From assembly GCA_002205965.3 (NCBI GenBank), contig NADL03000017.1, positions 620,001-684,000 on the forward strand: a stretch of 64,000 nucleotides of DNA, given 5' to 3'. The DNA comes from Kappaphycus alvarezii. Taxonomy: Eukaryota; Rhodophyta; Florideophyceae; Gigartinales; Solieriaceae. The translations under genes were made by a program, and so were the position numbers. The notes under the pieces were generated by a model. That model had not been told where the DNA came from and searched no databases. It saw only the letters and a program-made list of their open reading frames with translations. Below are positions 2,457 through 52,978 of the stretch, piece by piece (position 1 is the first letter of the stretch; the number at the start of each line of letters is the position of its first letter).

Positions 2457-2748
2457 AACGCAAGTCCGCGCCGTGGCGTACCGATCACCTTATCAGGTCC
2501 CCAAGGTGAACAGGCTCTGCTCAGTATGAATAATGCAGGTAAGGGTACTCGGCAAATTAGACCCGTGACTTTGGGAAAGGGGTTGGCTCTAGTGCTGCGT
2601 GGGAGTGGTTGCCAGGTTCTGGCGCGCGCAGCTGCTGAGGCGCTCGGCGCGGGACCCCGCAAGGGACCTGTGCCGTGCCGCTGATTCCCCGCGCCGCCAC
2701 GCCTCTCGACGCCCATGGCATGTAGCAGACTAGAACTGCAACAGGCAA

Positions 2749-3385
2749 AGGGAATCCGACTGTTTACTTAAAACAAATCATTTCAAGGGCCGTGGTCGTT
2801 GTTGACGCAATGTGATTTCTCTAAATGTTAAAGTGAAGAGATTCAATCAAGCGCGTGTAAACAGCAGGAGTAAATATGACTCTCTTAACGTTGCGGTGGA
2901 AAGGCGAGTGCAAGCTCGCATTTATTTAAAGTGCCCTTCCTTACATCCATAAGGCTCAACAGAGGACAATATGAGCATACAGTCCGTTCGGGTAACCGAA
3001 AGAGTTACTAAACATAGGGAGCAATGCTGCAGAGCTAAGAGACTAGCTACGGATGCTTATAGTGCATTCTGTAATTGTCTGGTGCCACATGGGTGTGGTG
3101 TACATCTGCCAGTGATGATATCCATTTCCAGTCGGTTCGTCGGGCTAAATCCTGAAAAAATCTTCTGGTTTTGCCCCAGAACCAAATGTGCGTTTGAACG
3201 CCATTTTGCGGGGCCAAATTCCAGAATATCACCTTCCAGCAAGAGCGAGTCCCAGTTCGATTAGCTCTGAACAAAAAACACAAGAGAGGCGTTTTTTTAT
3301 TGTTGTAGTTGAAGGGCGCCTCTTCTCCTCCAAGTGCCCAACTCCAATCCTTTTTTCCTCTAACCATTTCCGTTGCAAGGTACCA
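2749..3385. other. Spacer upstream of the 3.4 kb gene relic
   Basis: No supported gene. An open frame runs into the downstream gene relic from 3188, but the first ATG that gives plausible protein is at 3386. The stretch could hold the promoter and leader of that gene. I see no clear TATA box in a convincing position. Confidence 0.4.
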
Positions 3386-41939: not shown

Positions 41940-43190
41940 GAAGCGCGATGAACACGGCAAACCTCAACGATTCAAGGTCAGACTTGTTGCTCGCGGAAAT
42001 TTGCAGCACCTATCCAGTCTCGAAGCAAGGCAATGCTATTCCCTGTGGCAGATTCGAGTTTTTAAGGTTTTACTTTGCTTGGCAGCATCTTTGGATGGAA
42101 AGGCAGCAAATTGACATTAAGGGTGCATTTCTCTACGCTCTCTCCCAGAAGATGCCAACTTGTTCATTCGTCTCCCAAACATCCGGAATATCAGAAGCAG
42201 ATGGTGGTACAGCGAAGCTTGCAAATCATTGTATGGCTTAGGGAAGCTCCAAACTGTGGCACAAGACTTTGAGAACATTCCTGACGAGTCATGGATTCTC
42301 AACTGTATCTGTATCCGACTGCTTATTTCTCAGGCGCAAAAGTAATCTTGTTGCATAGTACTGGCATATGTGGACGACATTGTTATCCTTGGAAATCCAG
42401 CACTCGTTCGGAAACCAAAAGGGACTTAGAAAATTCCTTTTCTCTGAAGGACCTTGGAAGGGAACACATTTCTTGGCGTTTGCATCGAAGAACGATACAG
42501 AAATAATTCTCTCACAAAAGCGCTAATACGGAAAATATTTATTGAGGCCAAAACGGAAACATGCAAACCCGTTAGGACCCCTTACCTATATTTCATTCCC
42601 TGTATGAAGCTTGCGTACTCGAATGAGATGAATCGTGAAACTGTACCGTACCGAGGGATCTTAGGAAAATTACTTTTCTCGCGACGCGTACAAGGCCAGA
42701 CATCTCAACCGCGGTATCAATGCTTGGGAAATTTCATGCATGTCCCTTGCCTATGTACTGGAAAGCCATGAAACATGTCATCCGGTATTTGCAGGGCTCT
42801 TCACACTACGGTCTGTCGATTCCAAAGCTAAAGGGACGGTCATTCAGGTGTGGTCAAATGCAGACTGGGTCGAGAAAGGCAGTAGACGTTCACGGACAGG
42901 AATAATATGTGTTGCCGGAACACCAGTGGTTTGGATGTCGAAACTGCAGCAGTCTGTAGCTTTCTCAACTTGCGAAGCATATTTTATGCTCTCTCGAATG
43001 CGTCAAGAACGTGAAGTGATTTGCAGCTTTATGAATAACTTGGGATTCCCATGGATATGCTGTTACAATTTTCCAGGACAATCTTGGCAGCATCACATGG
43101 ACGAACGATGTTCAGGGTCTACGAAATGTGAAAATGTTGAATTCGATACAGCTTTGTCAAGGATTCTGTCCAAAGTGGGAAGGTAACTGT
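41940..43190 (+). pseudogene. copia reverse transcriptase and RNase H region (fossil)
   Basis: The reverse transcriptase part opens with MKRDEHGKPQRFKVRLVARG, continues with an IKGAFLYA-like box, and carries the YVDDIVILG catalytic motif near 42370. The RNase H part has SNADWVEKGSRRSRTGII and then KLQQSVAFSTCEAYFML near 42850-42990, both characteristic of copia RNase H. The region is broken. Confidence 0.8.
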
Positions 43191-43690: not shown

Positions 43691-44765
43691 CGGGCGGCGG
43701 TCGCGATAAAGACTCAAATCTTCTATGCTTTGCAGCCTTTGCCGTGTTGAGGGATGTAAGCGGGTTAAAACTGCGCTCTCTCCTGTTGGATGGCGCGAGT
43801 GGGTTGACAAAGTGACATCGAATAAATCCGTGCCTCCAGTGCTTCCCGTTGCCCTGTTGTCTGGCCGTGTACGATGAAGACCATCCTGGGCTCGATGGCG
43901 GGGTGACGAGCATCTTTCTGCAGGTCCTGGGCAAGCAAGTGAACTTAGCGGTCATGTCTCCGAATTCTTTGCTTACCTAGAAACTTTACTTCATTGAGTA
44001 CCCGGGTGGTCTACTTCGGCCACGTGCACAGGTGTACGGGACACGTACCGAACACAAGGTGGCCACTACCCGGTAATCACTCTTCCCGGAGGGGAACTGG
44101 GACCTTTATTTAAAGATTTAATTGGGCTTGCTAACAGACACAACATGGCAAGGGCTTGACCAATGCCTACTCCAGCGAAGGGGACAGAAGAAAATCCCCC
44201 ATTGAAATTTCGGCAAGCCGAGAAATCAACGGGTTGAAAAAACTCCGGTGTAAGCGATGTGCTTACAGAAAGCGACGATGACAGCGATGAATTCTCGAAG
44301 TGAGCGATCTTGAGGATTCCACGGTATTGTAGAAACAGTAAAGGGGAAAAATGCTGGGTTCTTTAATATCCCATGCTCCTAAAGTGACTTTTTTTGATCA
44401 TTTACCAATGAAGTGACAAAGTGAATATTTCGGGGTCGCAAGTGACTCTCGCAGTATATCGTTATTTTACCCTGCATGTGTTCGTGCATCACCACGCTCT
44501 GTGTGAAACAACTTACATCTAGCCCTCATCACCCCCACAGCAGAAGTCTCCACTCTTGCACTGAGCGTAAATCACGCATTTTCGGAAGTGCAGGGGTGAT
44601 CCACGGGATAGCGACCGGAATCACGATCAAGGGTGAACAAAGGGCTAAGGGAGCTCAAATTGCTTTAATTCGCGCCCATAGTCACGAGGGAGGACGTGAA
44701 TGACAAACAACCAAATATACCACAACAGAAAACTACTCTTCATCCATATCCCTAGTGCCGGATTT
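43691..44765. other. Flank and spacer between two elements
   Basis: The first 280 bp (43691-43970) are GC-rich and open on the minus strand (43668-43955). They match the GC-rich character of the left flank of the copia element, so both flanks may be one older sequence. The remaining 800 bp hold no recognisable gene. Confidence 0.4.
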
Positions 44766-44790
44766 TTATGTGCGATAAAACGCACATTAA
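44766..44790. repeat. Hairpin-like left end of element 1
   Basis: TTATGTGCG, then six bases, then CGCACATTA. It forms a hairpin and also matches, inverted, the right end of the element at 48756-48769. Confidence 0.65.
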
Positions 44791-44969
44791 GTTTGACTGG
44801 CTGCATTTAGGGAGTAAGACGTCCAAAGTAGAAACAAAACACATCAAAGCATAGAACAGGACTATGTGCATGTTTCTTTTGATTTTCAGCCAAAACTGAT
44901 GAATATTGACGGAATGGCGAGGTGGCGAAGTCAGGGCGATAGAGGGGTTCCATGAGGCCGAAATGGCTT

Positions 44970-44993
44970 TTATGTGCGAAAAAGCGCACATAA
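44970..44993. repeat. Second TTATGTGCG/CGCACATAA hairpin
   Basis: A 9-bp perfect stem with a six-base loop, 204 bp from the first. It may be a subterminal transposase-binding site or the end of a nested copy. Confidence 0.6.
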
Positions 44994-45717
44994 CAGGTAC
45001 ATTTTTACTTCGATATTGGGGGCTACAAGTTTTCTTTTGGCTAGAATGAGAGCGTTTCAACGCGGGCCCGGCGTTGTTACCATCATCTTGGGATCTACGT
45101 CTACTCGACCTACTCGAAGCTGTACTCAGTCTTGCATTTTCCACAACTTTTCCCACCACCAGAATGTCGTAACCTGTTATGCGCTCCCCGATTCTCACAT
45201 TCTTGTTCCGCTGCGGAGCTCGTCCCATTACCAGAGCTGGGTTCCGCGTCCACCTCTCCAGTTTCCGAACCACCCTCCTCTACTGTACTCGTCTCATTCC
45301 AGATTCCACTCGATCCGCTTCTGGCCGAGATTCGTCGCGCTTCTAAGGGCTTCGTACTATGGAAGATGTACGCGCAACTTTTCCGGTAACCTGAAGGAAC
45401 CTTGACACAAAGATGTACAGAGCAAAGTCTGTACTTGTATGTTGATCTGGCCCCCCCTATACCCTTGCGTGTGTTGTCCGCAAAGTGCGTAGTGGGTAAG
45501 AGGGCCCTGCGTCGTATGATGACCGCGTACGCTAAGACGCAAGGAAACACCTTATGTGGAGCCAAAAAGCGTTAGCCTGTTGCAATTTTTGGTGTGCGCG
45601 AGCCTGATGAGACGTTTGGCTTCAACGCTACTTGTTTCGGCCATGTTCTCTGTCCTTTCCTCCCTCTCGTGCTGAAGCTGAATATTAGACGCAAAGCTAA
45701 GCAGCTCTTGTGCGACG

Positions 45718-48380
45718 TCAAACATAAAAATCGGCCGTTGCTTGAACTTTGTTTAAGCACTTCCTATAGTTATCAAAAGATTTGAAAGAGTCTTCAGACT
45801 CGAGAAGATCTTGCCTTTCAAACATTCGCCACGCCAGGAAGGCGTTCACAGCCAGAGTCTTGAGAGTCTGTGATACTATCTCTTGTTCCCATTTCAGATG
45901 GGCCGTGTAAGTCCTCAAAGTAGCACGCTGCTGCGTGGCCCCGTCAACTCCAGCCTTGGTCTTTGAGTAGAAGCTCTGTGCCGCATGCTTAAACAGCTTC
46001 AGCGGAAAGAAGCAACCGTTGGTCTTCACGTGCTTCTCTACAATCTTCCAAAACTTATGTCTCGTCTCCAGTTGTTGGGGTTATCCACACCAACTAAACA
46101 CGGGAACGGCTTCTCGGCATACGCCCACCCCACCAGCGGTTTTTGTCAGGGAAATAAGTGAGGACTCAAACAATGACAGTATGTCCGGCGCTATCCTGAT
46201 AAGTTCCGTGTACAGCAAACCTTTCTCTCCAGCCATGACATAAAGACAAAACTTCAGCTTCAAAACCAAAGCCTGATGGACGATCTGTCCCATGTGCTCG
46301 CACCGGACGTATTTCTTGAGCTTCTCATCACCAATACGGCAAAAAATGACGTCGAATGATGCGAGCTGAGCGAAATCTCCTAGAAGGAAGCCGCTACCCG
46401 CGTCTTGATCTCAACACAAGCATCACAACTTTGCATCCACAAATCCCGGTAGAGCTTCAACAGTAGTGCACTCAGAAAAAATGCCAATGTCTACAAATGC
46501 CACGGCGTCTGGAGAGCAGGCCAGATAACTCGCATTCTTCATCGACAACATGCCAACGTAAACACCGCCTTGATGATTTCTTGAGATTCCAGAGCACTAA
46601 GTACTGCAAATTCGTTAGCAGTTCCCATCATCGCCTCAGTGGACACCTTGGAACTAAAACAGCTCCTGTGCAGCAATGAGAACCACTCGTTCTCTGTCAT
46701 GATGTTCCTCTCCCCAGGGGATAGCCCCAGTAGACATCACCAGCCGACGACATGAGAAGAAGCCCGCATTTGTCCCTGTTACACGAACTGCCGCAACACA
46801 AACCAATCCGCACACCTTTGTCCCAGCGTTAACACCTCACAGGCATTTCCAATCCTTTCCTCAGCTACAGTTCTAGTACCTGCAGGTCACTATCCTGATT
46901 GTGGCGCCACTGAACAGGGTTTTCTCGAGCGTAACATTAGACTTAGGTACCGCGATCCAGGTGTTAAGATTCTGCTGCATCTCAGGCGGCACCGTGTACA
47001 ATGAAACGCAAAACCTTCGCAAACTTATTCGTCCCGTGCTCTCTCACTGGCAACCGCAGTGATCGCATTTTTGCCTCCTCTCCGTCCACTCTTCTTCTTA
47101 ACGCGAAAAAACACTTCAGGTCCCATGTCTGGCGTCATCGATCACAAATTCGCTGCGTCGATCGTACCACTCGCGCTACCCGTCCTCAATCCGCTGTGTC
47201 ATCCACAATTTTGACCACCCTCACCGTCTGGATGACGGGAAACCTCCCCAGAACCTCCTGCTGTTGTATTATTTTGTTGGTCAGGTGCAGGTTGCTGGGC
47301 ACGGAATCGTGTTGTCCCTCCAGATCGCCACGAAAGGGGTTGAAGTACGACTTGGCCGCAAACGGATGGCATCGCAGAATGTGACCGGCATGAAAAAAAC
47401 AGAACAAAGGCCAAACTTCCATAAAAGCTCCATAAAAGCCTCCTTCCCGTAACCTCTGTCCGCCGTGACAATTAAAACTCAAAGATTCCTCCCCGCCCTT
47501 CTAACAACGTCTCGAGCAGCTTCCTAACTGAGACAACCTGAACCTCCCTCTCTCCTGAAGCGCAGCGCAAAGATAGCTCTGAACAGAGCATCCGCCACTG
47601 CATCCGCAGAATGACCTTCTTTGTCAGCCTTGCGGCTACTCAACATCTTCACCTGGTTGTCCGCCGCTCGGTTCCGAAGAGGTCATCATCTAAGGCAGCC
47701 ATCATGTGCAGCGGTACGAAGAATATCTTCCGGGTCTCCCTGAAAGCAAGGGACTCAAAGTCGGTCAGCTGGCGTGTTTGATCTCGTTGTGCAGACCAAT
47801 TTGCTGCCCGTCGTTTCCCCTTCCGTTGGAGGGTAGGCTAAAATATTTGTAGCAATAAAAGCATCCGATTTAACGACGGAGGAACGCTTCCAGCCCTACG
47901 AAGCACTGATACGGCCTTGTCAAAACCGAAGCCAGTCGTATGGGAGCGTAACAGAACTGCGACGTAGAGATACGTGTGCGAGAGTGTGAACGGCGATTGA
48001 GAAATTCTTCGAAGCTTAACATACTCGTTTAGCCAATCCAGTGACTGGCACAAGATTTCGTTTGTGATAAGCACTATGAAGCCACATTATGTCTGAGAAG
48101 ACCTTTTACGCTTGTTTACAGCTTCATGTTCATGACCGCAGACTTGCCAAAAAGCTTTTCTCTATGTTGCAGTACATTGTCGAATAACTCCGTTTCAATC
48201 ATGAAACTATTGCATTGTGTCAGACTCATTGTCCACCCCTCACTTGCGTCATCTCCCGAACGAGTTGAACGTCCACGCCCACGCCCACGACCTCGAACAA
48301 GCCTCATTCGCCTACTTCTAGGCGATCGCGACCTCTTCCTCTTCCCTCGAGACCTTTTCCTGCGTCATTTTCTGAATTGA
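45718..48380 (-). pseudogene. DDE (PiggyBac-like) transposase fused to a YqaJ-like nuclease, decayed
   Basis: Reading leftwards, the relic begins with a basic RGRGRGR region (about 48.3 kb) and GWTMSLTQCNSFMIETELF. LSHTYLYVAVLLRSHTTGF follows, then the first catalytic Asp in AALDDDLFGTE (about 47.69 kb). A DRG-Y-type box comes next at about 47.45 kb, followed by LRCHPFAAKSYFNPFRGD. A PD-(D/E)XK-type segment is next: YLACSPDAVAFVD near 46.5 kb, then CVEIKTRVA near 46.4 kb and MGQIVHQALVLKLKFCLYV near 46.27 kb. The C-terminal block is SKTKAGVDGATQQRATL with KTLAVNAFLAWRMFER (45.8-45.95 kb). The DDE parts resemble the PiggyBac (DDE_Tnp_1_7) family, and the S-P-D-x-V ... V-E-I-K pattern is that of YqaJ-type exonucleases. 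Pieces lie in many frames with several stops, so it is dead. Confidence 0.7.
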
Positions 48381-48733
48381 AGCCCCCATTACCAATTCCA
48401 CTGCCTAGAACCACCGCTCCAGCCGACTATTGCTCGGATACATCGGCACGACTGGCAGTTTGCTCGCTGCTTGCAGGCTTTAGGGGGTTGCGTTGCGCAC
48501 AAAAGACTCTTCGGTAGAGTCGGCCATGTTTTGTGTCCTCGTTGTCACAATACTGTTCGCTATTGAGGCCCTGAGCACGGCACACACTCAACAGGCTATA
48601 ACTTCGCCGTTTTTTTTTTGAATCCAGGATCTGGAAAGCCGGATCGGCTCTCAACTGACTCAGAAAGTTAAATGTAAGCTCCAAATGGATCAAAGGTTCT
48701 TGGAAGCGAAGTAGTCTGCCATGCAGTTAGCCT

Positions 48734-51725
48734 CTATAACTGCTCTAAAGTCCACTTTATCGCACATAACGGACAAATGGGGTTGGGGTCGTTTTTTCGA
48801 ACCAACGTGCGAACCTTGGAATGTGTCGCACTGATGAAGTGGCGCCGATATGCGTAGCCGCTCTTATCCTCAACCAATTCTGCGTACTCTTCGCAGTATG
48901 AATTACGTTGGAAAAGCATTAGCCTGTACACTACGGCCATGTTAGCTACTTGGAGAGCAGAGTACCTCCCCACTACGCTCAAAATTGAGTTGTCGCTTGA
49001 ATTGGTATAGCTGAGTGATCGCGAGGCGCGGCTCATCTCATCGACGGCACCTCTCACAAAACTTCAAAACACAAGCGCGGTGGGCCTGATCAATTTAGCA
49101 GGCGGGAGTAATCTCCCTTTTCAGCATTTTTTTTGTAGGCCTGACTCAGATTATAGTAGGACGTTAAAGGTACGAGATCAGATGCGAAGGAAGCCTTAAG
49201 CATCGTTTCATATTCTTTTGGAATATGCTTAGTTTCCTCGCCAATCCACGAGAGAGTAGAATGTCGTATGTAATCCATTGCAAAGAGATATGTGGTCATA
49301 AAATGGCGAGAGGAGCTGAGCAAAGTTGCATAGATAATTTTTCAGCGGCTAGTAGTATTAACTTCAGCTACAACAAACATAACAAACGGAGTGTTAAGAA
49401 CCACCGCGTGGTGTAAACATTGCGCCAGGTACTTATTTGTCGGCACCAGCTTTTTGAATATCTCAGTTGCGTCATCTGTTCTATCCACATGCTCCAAGTA
49501 ATGAAAGAAGCCCACCGTTATGAATACCTCCAGGGCCTTGGCCGCAGTTGATATTGCCGTCATGATTTTCAATTCTACGCCAGCCACAGTACAGGAACCT
49601 CCCTCATCCCGCAAGGCAACGATGGCATCTGGACTGTCCGCGATTAGAGTAGCCGTCTTCGAACCGATGAGTCCGGTGGTCCTGATATACTCGATGCTGT
49701 AATTTCTGAGCGCCGATGTAGCCCTCTACAGCACCCTCTAACCCTCGTGCTCCGAAACAAAGCTTGAAAGGGCTCGGAGCACTTGAAGCTCGTTCTACGA
49801 GACCTTTTCATGCCACATTCGCACCCGTCTCCCAGAGGGTACCTTCTGTGCGCTATAAATTGCCCTGCACCCTCATTCTTTCACAACCATTCCTTTTTGT
49901 TTCTTGCGTATTGGTCCGCCGCCAAACAGAAAGGGGTACTCAGAGAACGCTTGTGTGCCCCGATGGCAGTACAACCCAGGTGTTCGTTAATAAACGAGAT
50001 CGTTTCCTTGGAGTTATGAACGAGATCGGTTTTTTGGAGTTATAACAACGGTCAGCGGCGAATACGGCATCGAACATCGGCATGAATGCGCCGACGGTAG
50101 GGACACCCTGCAAAATTTTCACCAACCGTTGCCAAACGTGTGTGACTTTTTCTCCAGTTCGTGAATAGTGGCAGGCGAGGAAAACATTTGTCAGGGATGA
50201 ACAAATGGCGCTATCAACAGGCCCAAGGACTTTCTTTGGGTTATTTAAATGCGACAGGTTCGTGATTGCGGCAGCCCCATGTGATGTCAAGCGCTAGTGG
50301 TCATCTTCTAGCGCGATTGTCGTAGCAACCCTCACGTACAGCAGTGACCGGTTCACAGCTGCAAGGCTGCTCTCCATATCAGTGATGAGAGCGTTGCCTC
50401 GTAGAGGCTTGTCAGACCACCCCTTTGCAATCTGCTACGTTCTCTGGCGGAGCTCCGCGGTTGCAGAAAATGCGCTCCAGATCTGCAGGTATCTTGGTGG
50501 CTCGATGCAACCTGAAAGAAGAATTCAGAGTTCGCAGGTGCTGAGATGGTCGATACAGAGCATCAATATGATGCTGCGAGTGTGTGGAGCACGAGGACTC
50601 CTTTGAGTTCTTCCATATTAGTCTGTTTCCTGCTCCGTGAGTGAAGGACTCGATTAACGACACTGAAAACCATGTTGAGCACAATGGGTGGGAGAAAAAC
50701 GCCAAAGAGCTTTAAATGGGATATAAGTCACTGATATGATGCTTGGCGCCCCGTGGTTAGACATAAACTCCTCCAAAAGTTCTTCAGAATGCCGTTTACT
50801 TCTTCGAGATACCTTGACTCAGGCTAGTGTCAACATCATCCACAGCGATCTTGAACTTTTCAAAAGGCGATGCATAGCGCCATCCGTCCATCCCCCCTAC
50901 TTTCTGACTCGCCAGACGCTCCGATATCTCTTCCTCCGTCATTCAGTCGTCGGCTTCTTCTCCCTCTTCAACCTGCGACTCCATGCAGAATCTTCAAAGT
51001 TCAAAAATAAGCCAGACTCGACATCCGAGACGATGTCTTGGTAACGGTCTACACTTGATATCTGCGCGAAGCGTGCATTATTTGAAAATAAATCATTGCG
51101 TAGGTCCTCTAGCTCTCCTCCTCAACCTCTTCGTTCTGCTGAGATGGAGCAGAGATGGAGTCTGAACACCGAGAGTTCATGTTCTTAAACTCTTGGGAGA
51201 AAGTGTGATCCTCTTCGCTCATTTCGTCTGATGATGGAGAAGGATGTAAGTCAAATTCTTCACACAGGTTTCGGCGTACAAAGTTGGGACGGGCGGCACA
51301 GAGCACTCGGTATCTGGTACCGTCGTCCCTCTCTTTGTTGGAAAACTTAAACTTTGAGGGAATCGCACCTCACGTCTCACTGGACTGAGATCGCCTGAGT
51401 CGTTTTCAGCTCCCAAATGTTTCAAAGTGTAGAGCACAGATGTTGCCGGGTGTCTCTGCTCAGACAGAGACTTTAAGCACAGTTCGGATTGGCCTGAAGC
51501 CACGTTGGGACTGAGGAGGTGAAGATTTGTGGTACGATCGTGACTAGCTGGGGAATTAGCGAGGGTAGAAGTTTCCAACCTCCTCGGGGAAGGTAAGAAT
51601 GTGCTTATCTCGCGCTGAGAGCTGCCGTTGGGAGAAATGGCATTAGTTAGATTTCGGATAGGCGATTGGCTTTTCATTACGCAGCTGGTTCTTGTGATAT
51701 TTACCCACACTAGACCGTGATTCAC
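48734..51725 (-). pseudogene. DDE transposase with YqaJ-like nuclease segment (element 2), decayed
   Basis: The N-terminal part is Ser-rich and disordered (51219-51725), then acidic (DEMSEEDHTFSQEF, about 51.2 kb). A helical start follows, ISERLASQKVGGMDGWRYAS (about 50.9 kb). The catalytic part has GVPTVGAFMPMFDAVFAADR (about 50.05 kb) followed by CYNSKKPISF, i.e. the A-D-R-G-Y-N box with Gly changed to Cys. Next come IGAHKRSL, PFLFGGGPIRKKQKGMVV and GCRAIYSAQK in shifted frames. A nuclease-like segment follows: LIADSPDAIVALRDEG and VAGVELKIMTA (49.55-49.65 kb), then YLAQCLHHAVVLNTPFVMFV. The C-terminus carries RGAVDEMSRASRSLSYTNSS. This matches the domain order of element 1, so the two are relatives. 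There are many frame changes. It lies immediately next to element 1 on the same strand. Confidence 0.65.
48756..48769 (-). repeat. Inverted right end of element 1
   Basis: Its complement reads TTATGTGCGATAAA, identical over 14 bp to the left end at 44766. Confidence 0.65.
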
Positions 51726-51998
51726 CCTCTCTTTAGGTGAAGATCTGAAATGAGGTGAGTCTACGTCATTAATAGGTGATTGTGCGCGTTTTACGGTGAC
51801 TCAACATTATTCAAATGCACTCTGTATAGCAATAAGCCTTAAGAGAATCACCCATGGAGGCCAAGAGATCTTCCTGTCACTTCTTGGCAAGTGACGGAAA
51901 AACGTCTCCTAAGGAGCATGGAGATATTTGAAAGATGTGAGCGGCAGTGTCCCAGGATATTCCGGAAGGTAGCTGATGTTACTGTGCGTGGTGATGTC
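51726..51998. other. Spacer at the presumed right end of element 2
   Basis: No gene. A sequence at about 51777-51797 (ATTGTGCGCGTTTTACGGTG) resembles the hairpin ends of element 1 (complement of the left end: AATGTGCGTTTTATCGCACA) and may be the decayed end of element 2. Confidence 0.35.
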
Positions 51999-52080
51999 TA
52001 CAGTACAGTAATGGACACTACAGTACTGTACAGTAGTACAGTACGGTAGTACAGTACGAATAAACAATATTGTACTGTTG
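51999..52080. repeat. Dense GTAC-palindrome cluster
   Basis: Eight or more overlapping CAGTAC/GTACTG units in 80 bp, including ACAGTACTGTACAGTAG. It is the densest cluster in the window and lies just outside the gypsy element and its tandem array. Confidence 0.7.
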
Positions 52081-52104
52081 CCAATTACTCTTGGCACGGC
52101 CTCT

Positions 52105-52464
52105 GGTACCACCTGTAGTTTCGAAAGACCCTAGAACAGGTCAGATACCGCTGATGCTTCACTCAAAAGCACCACGTGCAGTCTCTCTCTGGACCTCGGT
52201 ACAGGGTCGGATACCCGTGTCGTTGAATCTCCTTACACTCACATCCATCACCTCCAGTCCCTATCTGAACCTCGGTTCAGGGTCGGATACCTGTTTCGTT
52301 GCCTCTCCTTACACTCAAATCCATCACCTCCCGTCCCTATCTGGACCTCGATTCAGGGTCGGATACCCGTTTCGTTGCCTCTTCTGACACTCACAGGCAC
52401 CACCTGCAGTCCATTTCTGGACCTCGGTACAGAGTCGGATACCCGTTTCGTTACCTCTTCTTAC
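52105..52464. repeat. 76-bp tandem array, four units plus a diverged partial one
   Basis: The box GGACCTCGG-ACAGGGTCGGATACC starts at 52191, 52267, 52343 and 52419, exactly 76 bp apart, with only a few differences between units. A more diverged partial unit precedes at 52105-52160. Units are directly adjacent without unique spacers. The last unit is also part of the terminal repeat of the gypsy element and recurs once at 57521-57600. Confidence 0.85.
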
Positions 52465-52978
52465 ACTGTCGGCAATACCTAGGCCTTGAGCCAGTACTTT
52501 TAGGCTCTTTTGCCGTTTACTTAACGCAAACACGGTTACCCACTCAGGATTAATACTATCACGATTACTCTTGCTTATTAACGAGAACCCGGAAGCGCGG
52601 CTGAATCTCCAAAACACGAATAAGCTGACAAACAGTTTGCTTCGCTTGATCGTGCTAGATCACTGCTTCCCTCTTAGACTCCATCGCTTGCCTCTCTCTT
52701 CCTACCATCTGCGTCCTCTACTAGCACTATTTATACCCACAGTCTGCCCACACATTCGTCTTCCTACTCTCCGTCATGACCTATCGAGTCCAGCGTCATC
52801 ATTAATTGGTCCCTTTTCCCTACATCCCCCTCCTGTTACTAATTGGTCTCAAGGTCTCAAGTTCAATTAGATGTTGATGCATTGCTATACCCGGAAACTG
52901 TTGCCTTGCTGTGCCTGACGAAAAGATGTAACAATGATAGCTGTCCACATATTACAAGATCCGGTTCGCCTGGTCACA
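52386..52978 (-). repeat. 3' LTR of the gypsy element (left copy)
   Basis: The right border at GGTCACA is firm because a polypurine tract abuts it. The left border is uncertain and may lie further left, inside the 76-bp array. Confidence 0.75.

Follow-up and report, generated by a model that had tools for sequence, protein, structure and literature searches.

Two nested transposon relics in Kappaphycus alvarezii represent related DNA transposon families whose single large transposase probably carries a YqaJ/lambda-exonuclease-type nuclease within a distantly piggyBac-like core

The analysed window, a stretch of 64,000 bp (C17:620001-684000; the genome searched comprises 336 Mb in 884 contigs), contains two degenerate transposon copies on the minus strand, here called relics A and B (Table 1). 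Both contain the motifs that the earlier note had quoted, in the order described there and at the places given in Table 1, broken up by stop codons and frame changes. The motifs are not due to chance, as both relics match other copies in the genome: relic A is 91.7 % identical to copy L039 over 2747 bp, and relic B is 81-85 % identical to L015 and L028 in the larger matches. A family A frame used as query recovered at least 101 matches in the genome, and the relic B nuclease piece at least 79 in a first search. Pfam searches on the window pieces themselves gave nothing useful and no YqaJ match, so sister copies were used instead. The span originally assigned to the pair (45718..51725) proved too narrow at both ends, leaving out the start and the finger of A and the outer edges of B.

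Elsewhere in the window we noted an isolated fragment of eukaryotic large-subunit rRNA (2530-2950, plus strand; Rfam RF02543, 154 bits, model positions 1895-2354 of 3401), an ORF that by eye resembles a Copia-type RNase H (42665-43183, plus strand) and short tandem units of about 76 bp (52237-52391), recognised from repeated offsets against L028. A further family A copy, L042, lies on the same contig about 46 kb beyond the window end (G000 C17:729715-731088) and is 97.5 % identical to copy L031.

Table 1. Features of the two relics, in window coordinates.
Feature	Position	Strand	Basis and details
Relic B, whole element	44371..51921	-	Interrupted by relic A; TIR CCATGCTCC.../...GGAGCATGG; inverted repeat 44371-44408 / 51884-51921; homology to L015 and L003 ends at 44370
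Relic B, left target-site duplication ATAT	44366..44369	.	Sequence at element edge
Relic B, right target-site duplication ATAT	51924..51927	.	Sequence at element edge; two bases past the TIR match
ATAT target of relic A within B	44746..44749	.	Comparison with uninterrupted B copies
Relic A	44750..48793 (end is an upper bound)	-	3' TIR CCCTAGTGC at 44750-44758 (one mismatch; chance gives about one such match per 64 kb, so the position is what makes it count); family B similarity breaks off at 44750 and starts again at 48794
Relic A, basic AT-hook-like N-terminal stretch	48116..48364	-	ORF; RGRGRGRS at 48266-48289; AT_hook sub-threshold in sister copy L009
Relic A, transposase core, first part	47347..47984	-	blastp/tblastn to L031 8-229
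Relic A, D1 motif ALDDDLFGT	47670-47696	-	In core first part
Relic A, D2 motif TADRGYGK	47443-47466	-	In core first part
Relic A, YqaJ-like nuclease segment	46195..46862	-	Matches to L031 367-593
Relic A, nuclease motif CSPDAVAF	46495-46518	-	
Relic A, nuclease motif CVEIKTRVA	46392-46418	-	
Relic A, nuclease motif HMGQIVHQ	46273-46296	-	
Relic A, putative third-acid helix block	45727..46071	-	70 % identity to L031 636-750; GVDGATQ at 45931-45951
Relic A, C-terminal Cys-rich finger	45203..45454	-	77 % identity to L039; outside the span first assigned
Relic B, core	50012..50491	-	48 % to L016 267-426, E 1e-52; D1 ALEDDH 50297-50314; D2 within FAADRCYNSKK 50030-50062
Relic B, YqaJ-like nuclease segment	49288..49818	-	tblastn with L018, L024 and L010
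Relic B, nuclease motifs	SPDAIVAL 49612-49635; GVELK 49567-49581; LAQCLHH 49408-49428	-	
Relic B, putative third-acid block	48803..49108	-	45 % to L024; GAVDEMSR at 49028-49051

Described as neighbouring in the earlier note, the relics are in fact nested, with A sitting inside B at an ATAT target. Family B homology breaks off at 44750; it is picked up again at 48794 when the window is compared with L028, and at 48820 when it is compared with L015. At that point the uninterrupted B copies L028, L015 and L003 (L002 and L005 overlap with L028 and L015 and add no independent copies) read TTCATCCATAT and then CATC or CGTC, whereas the window reads TTCATCCATATCCCTAGTGC; as these copies read through the ATAT where the window departs, A was inserted there. 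A later loss took away the 5' end of relic A and about 440-460 bp of B. Judged by eye, the lost part of B includes its C-terminal finger, which is missing past the third-acid block in the window and present in L028, L015 and L003. L028 shares sequence with the window beyond the edges of B as well (44002-52976, in pieces), so it probably arose by duplication of this very locus before A arrived.

The edges of family A are sharp in both copy pairs, L029/L009 (98.3 % identity over 4752 bp) and L030/L031 (96.7 % over 4208 bp), and read ATAT/CCCTA...GGG/ATAT, with the slashes at the element boundaries. Both ends are known in five copies. For four of them we joined the flanks and searched for empty sites; the fifth, L013, was left out for its altered left edge and internal deletion. 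Each of the four searched copies led to at least one unoccupied paralogue. A single ATAT stands at the junction in L049, L051, L054 and L050, and the junctions of L052 (CTAT) and L053 (CATA) carry changes that may be those expected of diverged paralogues. In family B, copy L015 is a 5031-bp element with ATAG on both sides, and the empty paralogue L066 has a single ATAG. Families A and B are real transposition units with 4-bp duplications, ATAT in A and ATAG in one B copy. The option that ATAT is part of the terminal inverted repeat (TIR) was rejected, as the empty sites hold it.

The left flank of L015 (G000 C635) is about 190 bp of a high-copy repeat adjoining the B insertion, present at no fewer than 37 other places at 91-94 % identity among the best 40 of 1472 candidates. 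In relic A, related inverted repeats around TTATGTGCG at window 44766-44789, 44969-44996 and 48743-48769 are possibly sub-terminal transposase-binding repeats.

The sister copies share one protein design: a basic, AT-hook-like N-terminus is followed by two Asp motifs, then by a YqaJ/lambda-exonuclease domain, a GVD block and, at the C-terminus, a Cys-rich finger. Uninterrupted frames occur in L031 (958 aa), L030 (975 aa) and L029 (867 aa), in support of the proposal that a transposase and a YqaJ-like nuclease share one polypeptide. In the L031 frame LDDDL lies at 106, TAERGY at 184, the nuclease motifs at 381-567, GVDGATQ at 676, KWEQK at 695 and Cys motifs at 826 and 845, so that both Asp blocks, the nuclease and the finger stand in one frame, with about 79 residues between D1 and D2 and about 492 between D2 and D3. 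The pieces in the window are in different frames, as they would be if two separate genes, one for a transposase and one for a YqaJ protein, simply adjoined, but this reading is extremely improbable, contradicted as it is by the three single frames and by L031, where the core resumes in-frame past the nuclease. Judged by its residues, L031, the sole frame with all parts, is degenerate, because it has a Glu at D2 and SLN (CSLN) replacing SPD. L029 keeps both the D2 and SPD motifs and its frame ends before the third-acid block, and none of the fetched copies is shown by its sequence to be fully functional. Between recent copies, dN/dS is 0.53-0.93 for the nuclease (three pairs), 0.66 for the first part of the core (one pair) and 0.51-0.88 for the C part (four pairs), on the eight pairs that span 60 codons or more and have dS below 1.6 (the L035 row was dropped for stops in the frame used). 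The similar values suggest that the nuclease is under no stronger constraint than the core, as in mostly dead copies.

The earlier note had placed the core first, the nuclease behind it and the VDGATQ/AVDEMSR block at the end. The motif order stands, and the block is probably the third catalytic-acid segment, which would put the nuclease inside the transposase core and not behind it. We also looked for relatives lacking the nuclease, which would speak against the fusion. The best 150 matches each to the N part and the C part of the core were paired where C lay downstream of N on the same strand within 8 kb (the order N part to C part is by construction of the pairing), giving 71 pairs at 69 N loci; scoring covered the best 150 of 1264 (N part), 1255 (C part) and 880 (nuclease) first-look candidates, so all match counts are lower bounds. 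After correction for unaligned ends, 68 of the 71 pairs have 1.05-2.2 kb between the core halves; the median gap over all 71 is 1369 bp, and the three short gaps (606, 828 and -185 bp) are probably deletions. The halves flank a family A nuclease match at no fewer than 48 of the 69 loci (30 and 18 from two sets of matches listed); at the other 21, including the three short-gap loci, the nuclease is not among the matches listed, which means unseen and not shown absent. The fusion withstood this search.

Over the whole genome, Pfam YqaJ (PF09588) gave 12 places at E<=1, of which 8 exceed the curated cut-off and 11 coincide with family A nuclease matches (the exception is C746:1302231). Eight of the ten members of alignment A5 match YqaJ (best 4.5e-9), and L048 reaches 36-37 bits against a cut-off of 22; the match runs nearly the full profile length. 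Most single frames remain below the YqaJ cut-off. We compared the family A nuclease profile by hhalign with an alignment of lambda exonuclease and eight phage exonucleases and obtained a probability of 97.5, an E-value of 6.7e-12 and a score of 84, against a maximum of 17.4 in 20 column shuffles and 15.4 and 9.9 for the transposase parts. The lambda exonuclease invariants R28, T33, G81, E85, SPD119, E129, K131 and Q157 superpose on family A, which bears out the reading of S-P-D ... E-x-K as a YqaJ-type pattern; the invariant G30 is not kept. The family B nuclease matches that of family A at E 6.4e-11 (a value without shuffle control) and lambda exonuclease directly only weakly (E 0.0065; score 27.2, with shuffles reaching 15.9 at most), so that its assignment appears to run through family A and is weak by itself.

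Of ten aligned copies, some of them not independent of each other, nine retain the SPD Asp and all ten retain ExK. Across A5, where identity to the first row is 31-45 %, the NE, SPD and ExK positions vary little or not at all. By profile and motif the nuclease belongs to the YqaJ/lambda-exonuclease family with its catalytic motifs retained, and it is predicted to be active. The fold could instead be kept merely as a DNA-binding or architectural insertion domain that no longer cuts, as altered SPD motifs in L031 and L042 (CSLD) and the non-nuclease insertion domains in the cores of piggyBac and piggyBat (PMC9499001, PMC11707139) might suggest; the retention of catalytic residues at such low identity speaks against this, and we consider it unlikely. 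Neither the core profile nor the nuclease profile found a relative among the viral contigs scanned; the nuclease profile found none in the prokaryotic genomes, and tblastn with the L048 nuclease none in phages. These scans thus point to no recent donor of viral or bacterial origin. Against PDB, phmmer with L031 gave just two weak matches, to ATP synthase epsilon, and the core and nuclease profiles no relevant chain.

Regarding the transposase core, the signals were fainter. The earlier note had expected Pfam matches to both YqaJ and DDE_Tnp_1_7; YqaJ exceeds its cut-off in other copies, and the single L029 frame has sub-threshold matches to YqaJ (0.0034) and DDE_Tnp_1 (0.026), but DDE_Tnp_1_7 was above cut-off in none of the family A frames scanned and appeared in one of ten C-part members at 0.069. 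DDE_Tnp_1 is the top Pfam match of the first half (two of eight N-part members, best 0.0051). For the finger in ten C-part members we obtained C1_2 in six (best 0.00096), zf-Tnp_2 in five (0.011) and DUF7830 in three (0.00059); zf-Tnp_2 and C1_2 are below cut-off where one is shown, and the unrelated models C1_2 and DUF7830 outscore zf-Tnp_2. The only transposase in PDB matched by the C-part profile is piggyBac 6x67 (E 0.82, ranking below three ClpX zinc-finger chains), over 50 ungapped residues, 437-486, which presumably include the third Asp, D447.

The same genome holds at least 119 piggyBac matches. Five were fetched; the two checked in Pfam (L045 and L047) have no YqaJ and match DDE_Tnp_1_7 along the length of the model. 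Against the five, the C part aligns on the same third-acid block (score 30.3, maximum of 25 shuffles 19.4), and the best alignment of the N part falls on their second-Asp motif (21.1 against 16.8). In a comparison with three of them the C part gave E 0.0073 and the N part nothing, and the hhalign probabilities for the piggyBac similarity are 8-12 % and 0.8 %. With the first and last core parts joined, the local alignment to the same-genome piggyBacs covered the third-acid block alone and the global one failed. An equally conserved KWEQK offers its Glu as an alternative third acid. These alignments are no more than suggestive of a distantly piggyBac-like, probably Asp-Asp-Asp core. The duplications are ATAT in family A and ATAG in one B copy, not TTAA, and for this reason we do not file the element as piggyBac.

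A different lineage, IS4/IS5-like or Harbinger/ISL2EU-like, could also be considered, for instance an ISL2EU-type element with its separate YqaJ ORF built into the transposase. ISL2EU does have a YqaJ ORF (PMC4482050), DDE_Tnp_1 is the best Pfam match of the first half, and KWEQK could supply a Glu. However, 4-bp duplications and CC ends stand here against AT and usually GG in ISL2EU, the nuclease is internal, and the third-acid block aligns with piggyBac; we consider this lineage unlikely.

Taken as a whole, the locus is probably best explained as two dead, nested copies of two related multicopy, TIR-bounded DNA transposon families, each with one large transposase in which a lambda-exonuclease/YqaJ nuclease splits a distantly piggyBac-like core, and working as follows. 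The N-terminus and the C-terminal finger would bind the CCCT/CCCC inverted repeats, and the core would cut and join at 4-bp AT-rich targets. Excision would leave free 5' ends in the donor, on which the nuclease could act. As first choice, it would resect the donor break 5'->3', and repair would then copy the sister or homologue, so that the donor copy is restored and the element gains copies; we hold donor-break resection as the role of the nuclease at somewhat less than even confidence. That the elements are a eukaryotic DNA transposon lineage of their own, distinct at superfamily level, with an active lambda-type exonuclease nested in an RNase H core and excision coupled to donor-break resection so that copy-repair multiplies the element, is possible but on the doubtful side.

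Alternatively, the nuclease might process the non-transferred strand or replace the hairpin step, cutting the 5' strand at the transposon ends as TnsA does and allowing excision without the piggyBac hairpin route. TnsA has a restriction-enzyme-like fold; the family matched here is that of lambda exonuclease, which needs a free end. In Tn7 the 5' cut is the work of TnsA and the 3' cut that of TnsB; the two also occur naturally as TnsAB fusions, and mutation of TnsA results in cointegrates (PMC8188705). Here, the nuclease lies inside the core and not at one end, and we regard a TnsA-like role as conceivable though somewhat unlikely.

In the literature searched, a scope outside which Repbase and most subscription papers fall, we found no description of a YqaJ-type nuclease inside a transposase polypeptide. 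The TnsAB fusions of Tn7-like elements also join an endonuclease and a DDE transposase in one protein (PMC8188705), but the nuclease is of another family, the domains are joined end to end, and the described cases are bacterial and RNA-guided. KolobokP is a eukaryotic DDD/E transposon with an extra nuclease, a downstream His-Me finger homing endonuclease (PMC9587614); the Kolobok superfamily has TTAA duplications and RR termini, which the ATAT and CC termini here do not match. With the lambda exonuclease/YqaJ family our domain shares nearly the full profile length and the catalytic motifs, while the phage members are free-standing recombination exonucleases.

ISL2EU (PHIS/Harbinger-like) is, like the elements here, a DDE transposon encoding a YqaJ exonuclease-domain protein (PMC4482050, PMC9179366), whose role is stated as unknown (PMC4482050). 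There YqaJ stands on a second ORF, HTH/THAP domains are present and the elements are reported from animals, whereas here single frames carry the nuclease inside the core. Having the same kind of nuclease within one polypeptide means that core and nuclease could be mutated separately and their division of labour measured.

The piggyBac superfamily has TTAA duplications where ours are ATAT/ATAG; its ends start with CC, as here, and its insertion domain is not known to hold a nuclease. It resembles the present elements in a core with an insertion domain and in a 4-bp AT-rich duplication, and its C-terminal Cys-rich DNA-binding domain may correspond to the finger here (PMC9499001, PMC11707139). 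In piggyBat the triad D237/D309/D413 gives 72 residues from D1 to D2 and 104 from D2 to D3, and the insertion subdomain lies just before residue 382 and so between the second and third Asp (PMC11707139). The D2-D3 distance here is about 390 residues longer, and the added span holds the nuclease, roughly at the place of the small piggyBac insertion domain. If this placement holds, an RNase H transposase can accommodate an entire second nuclease at its insertion site.
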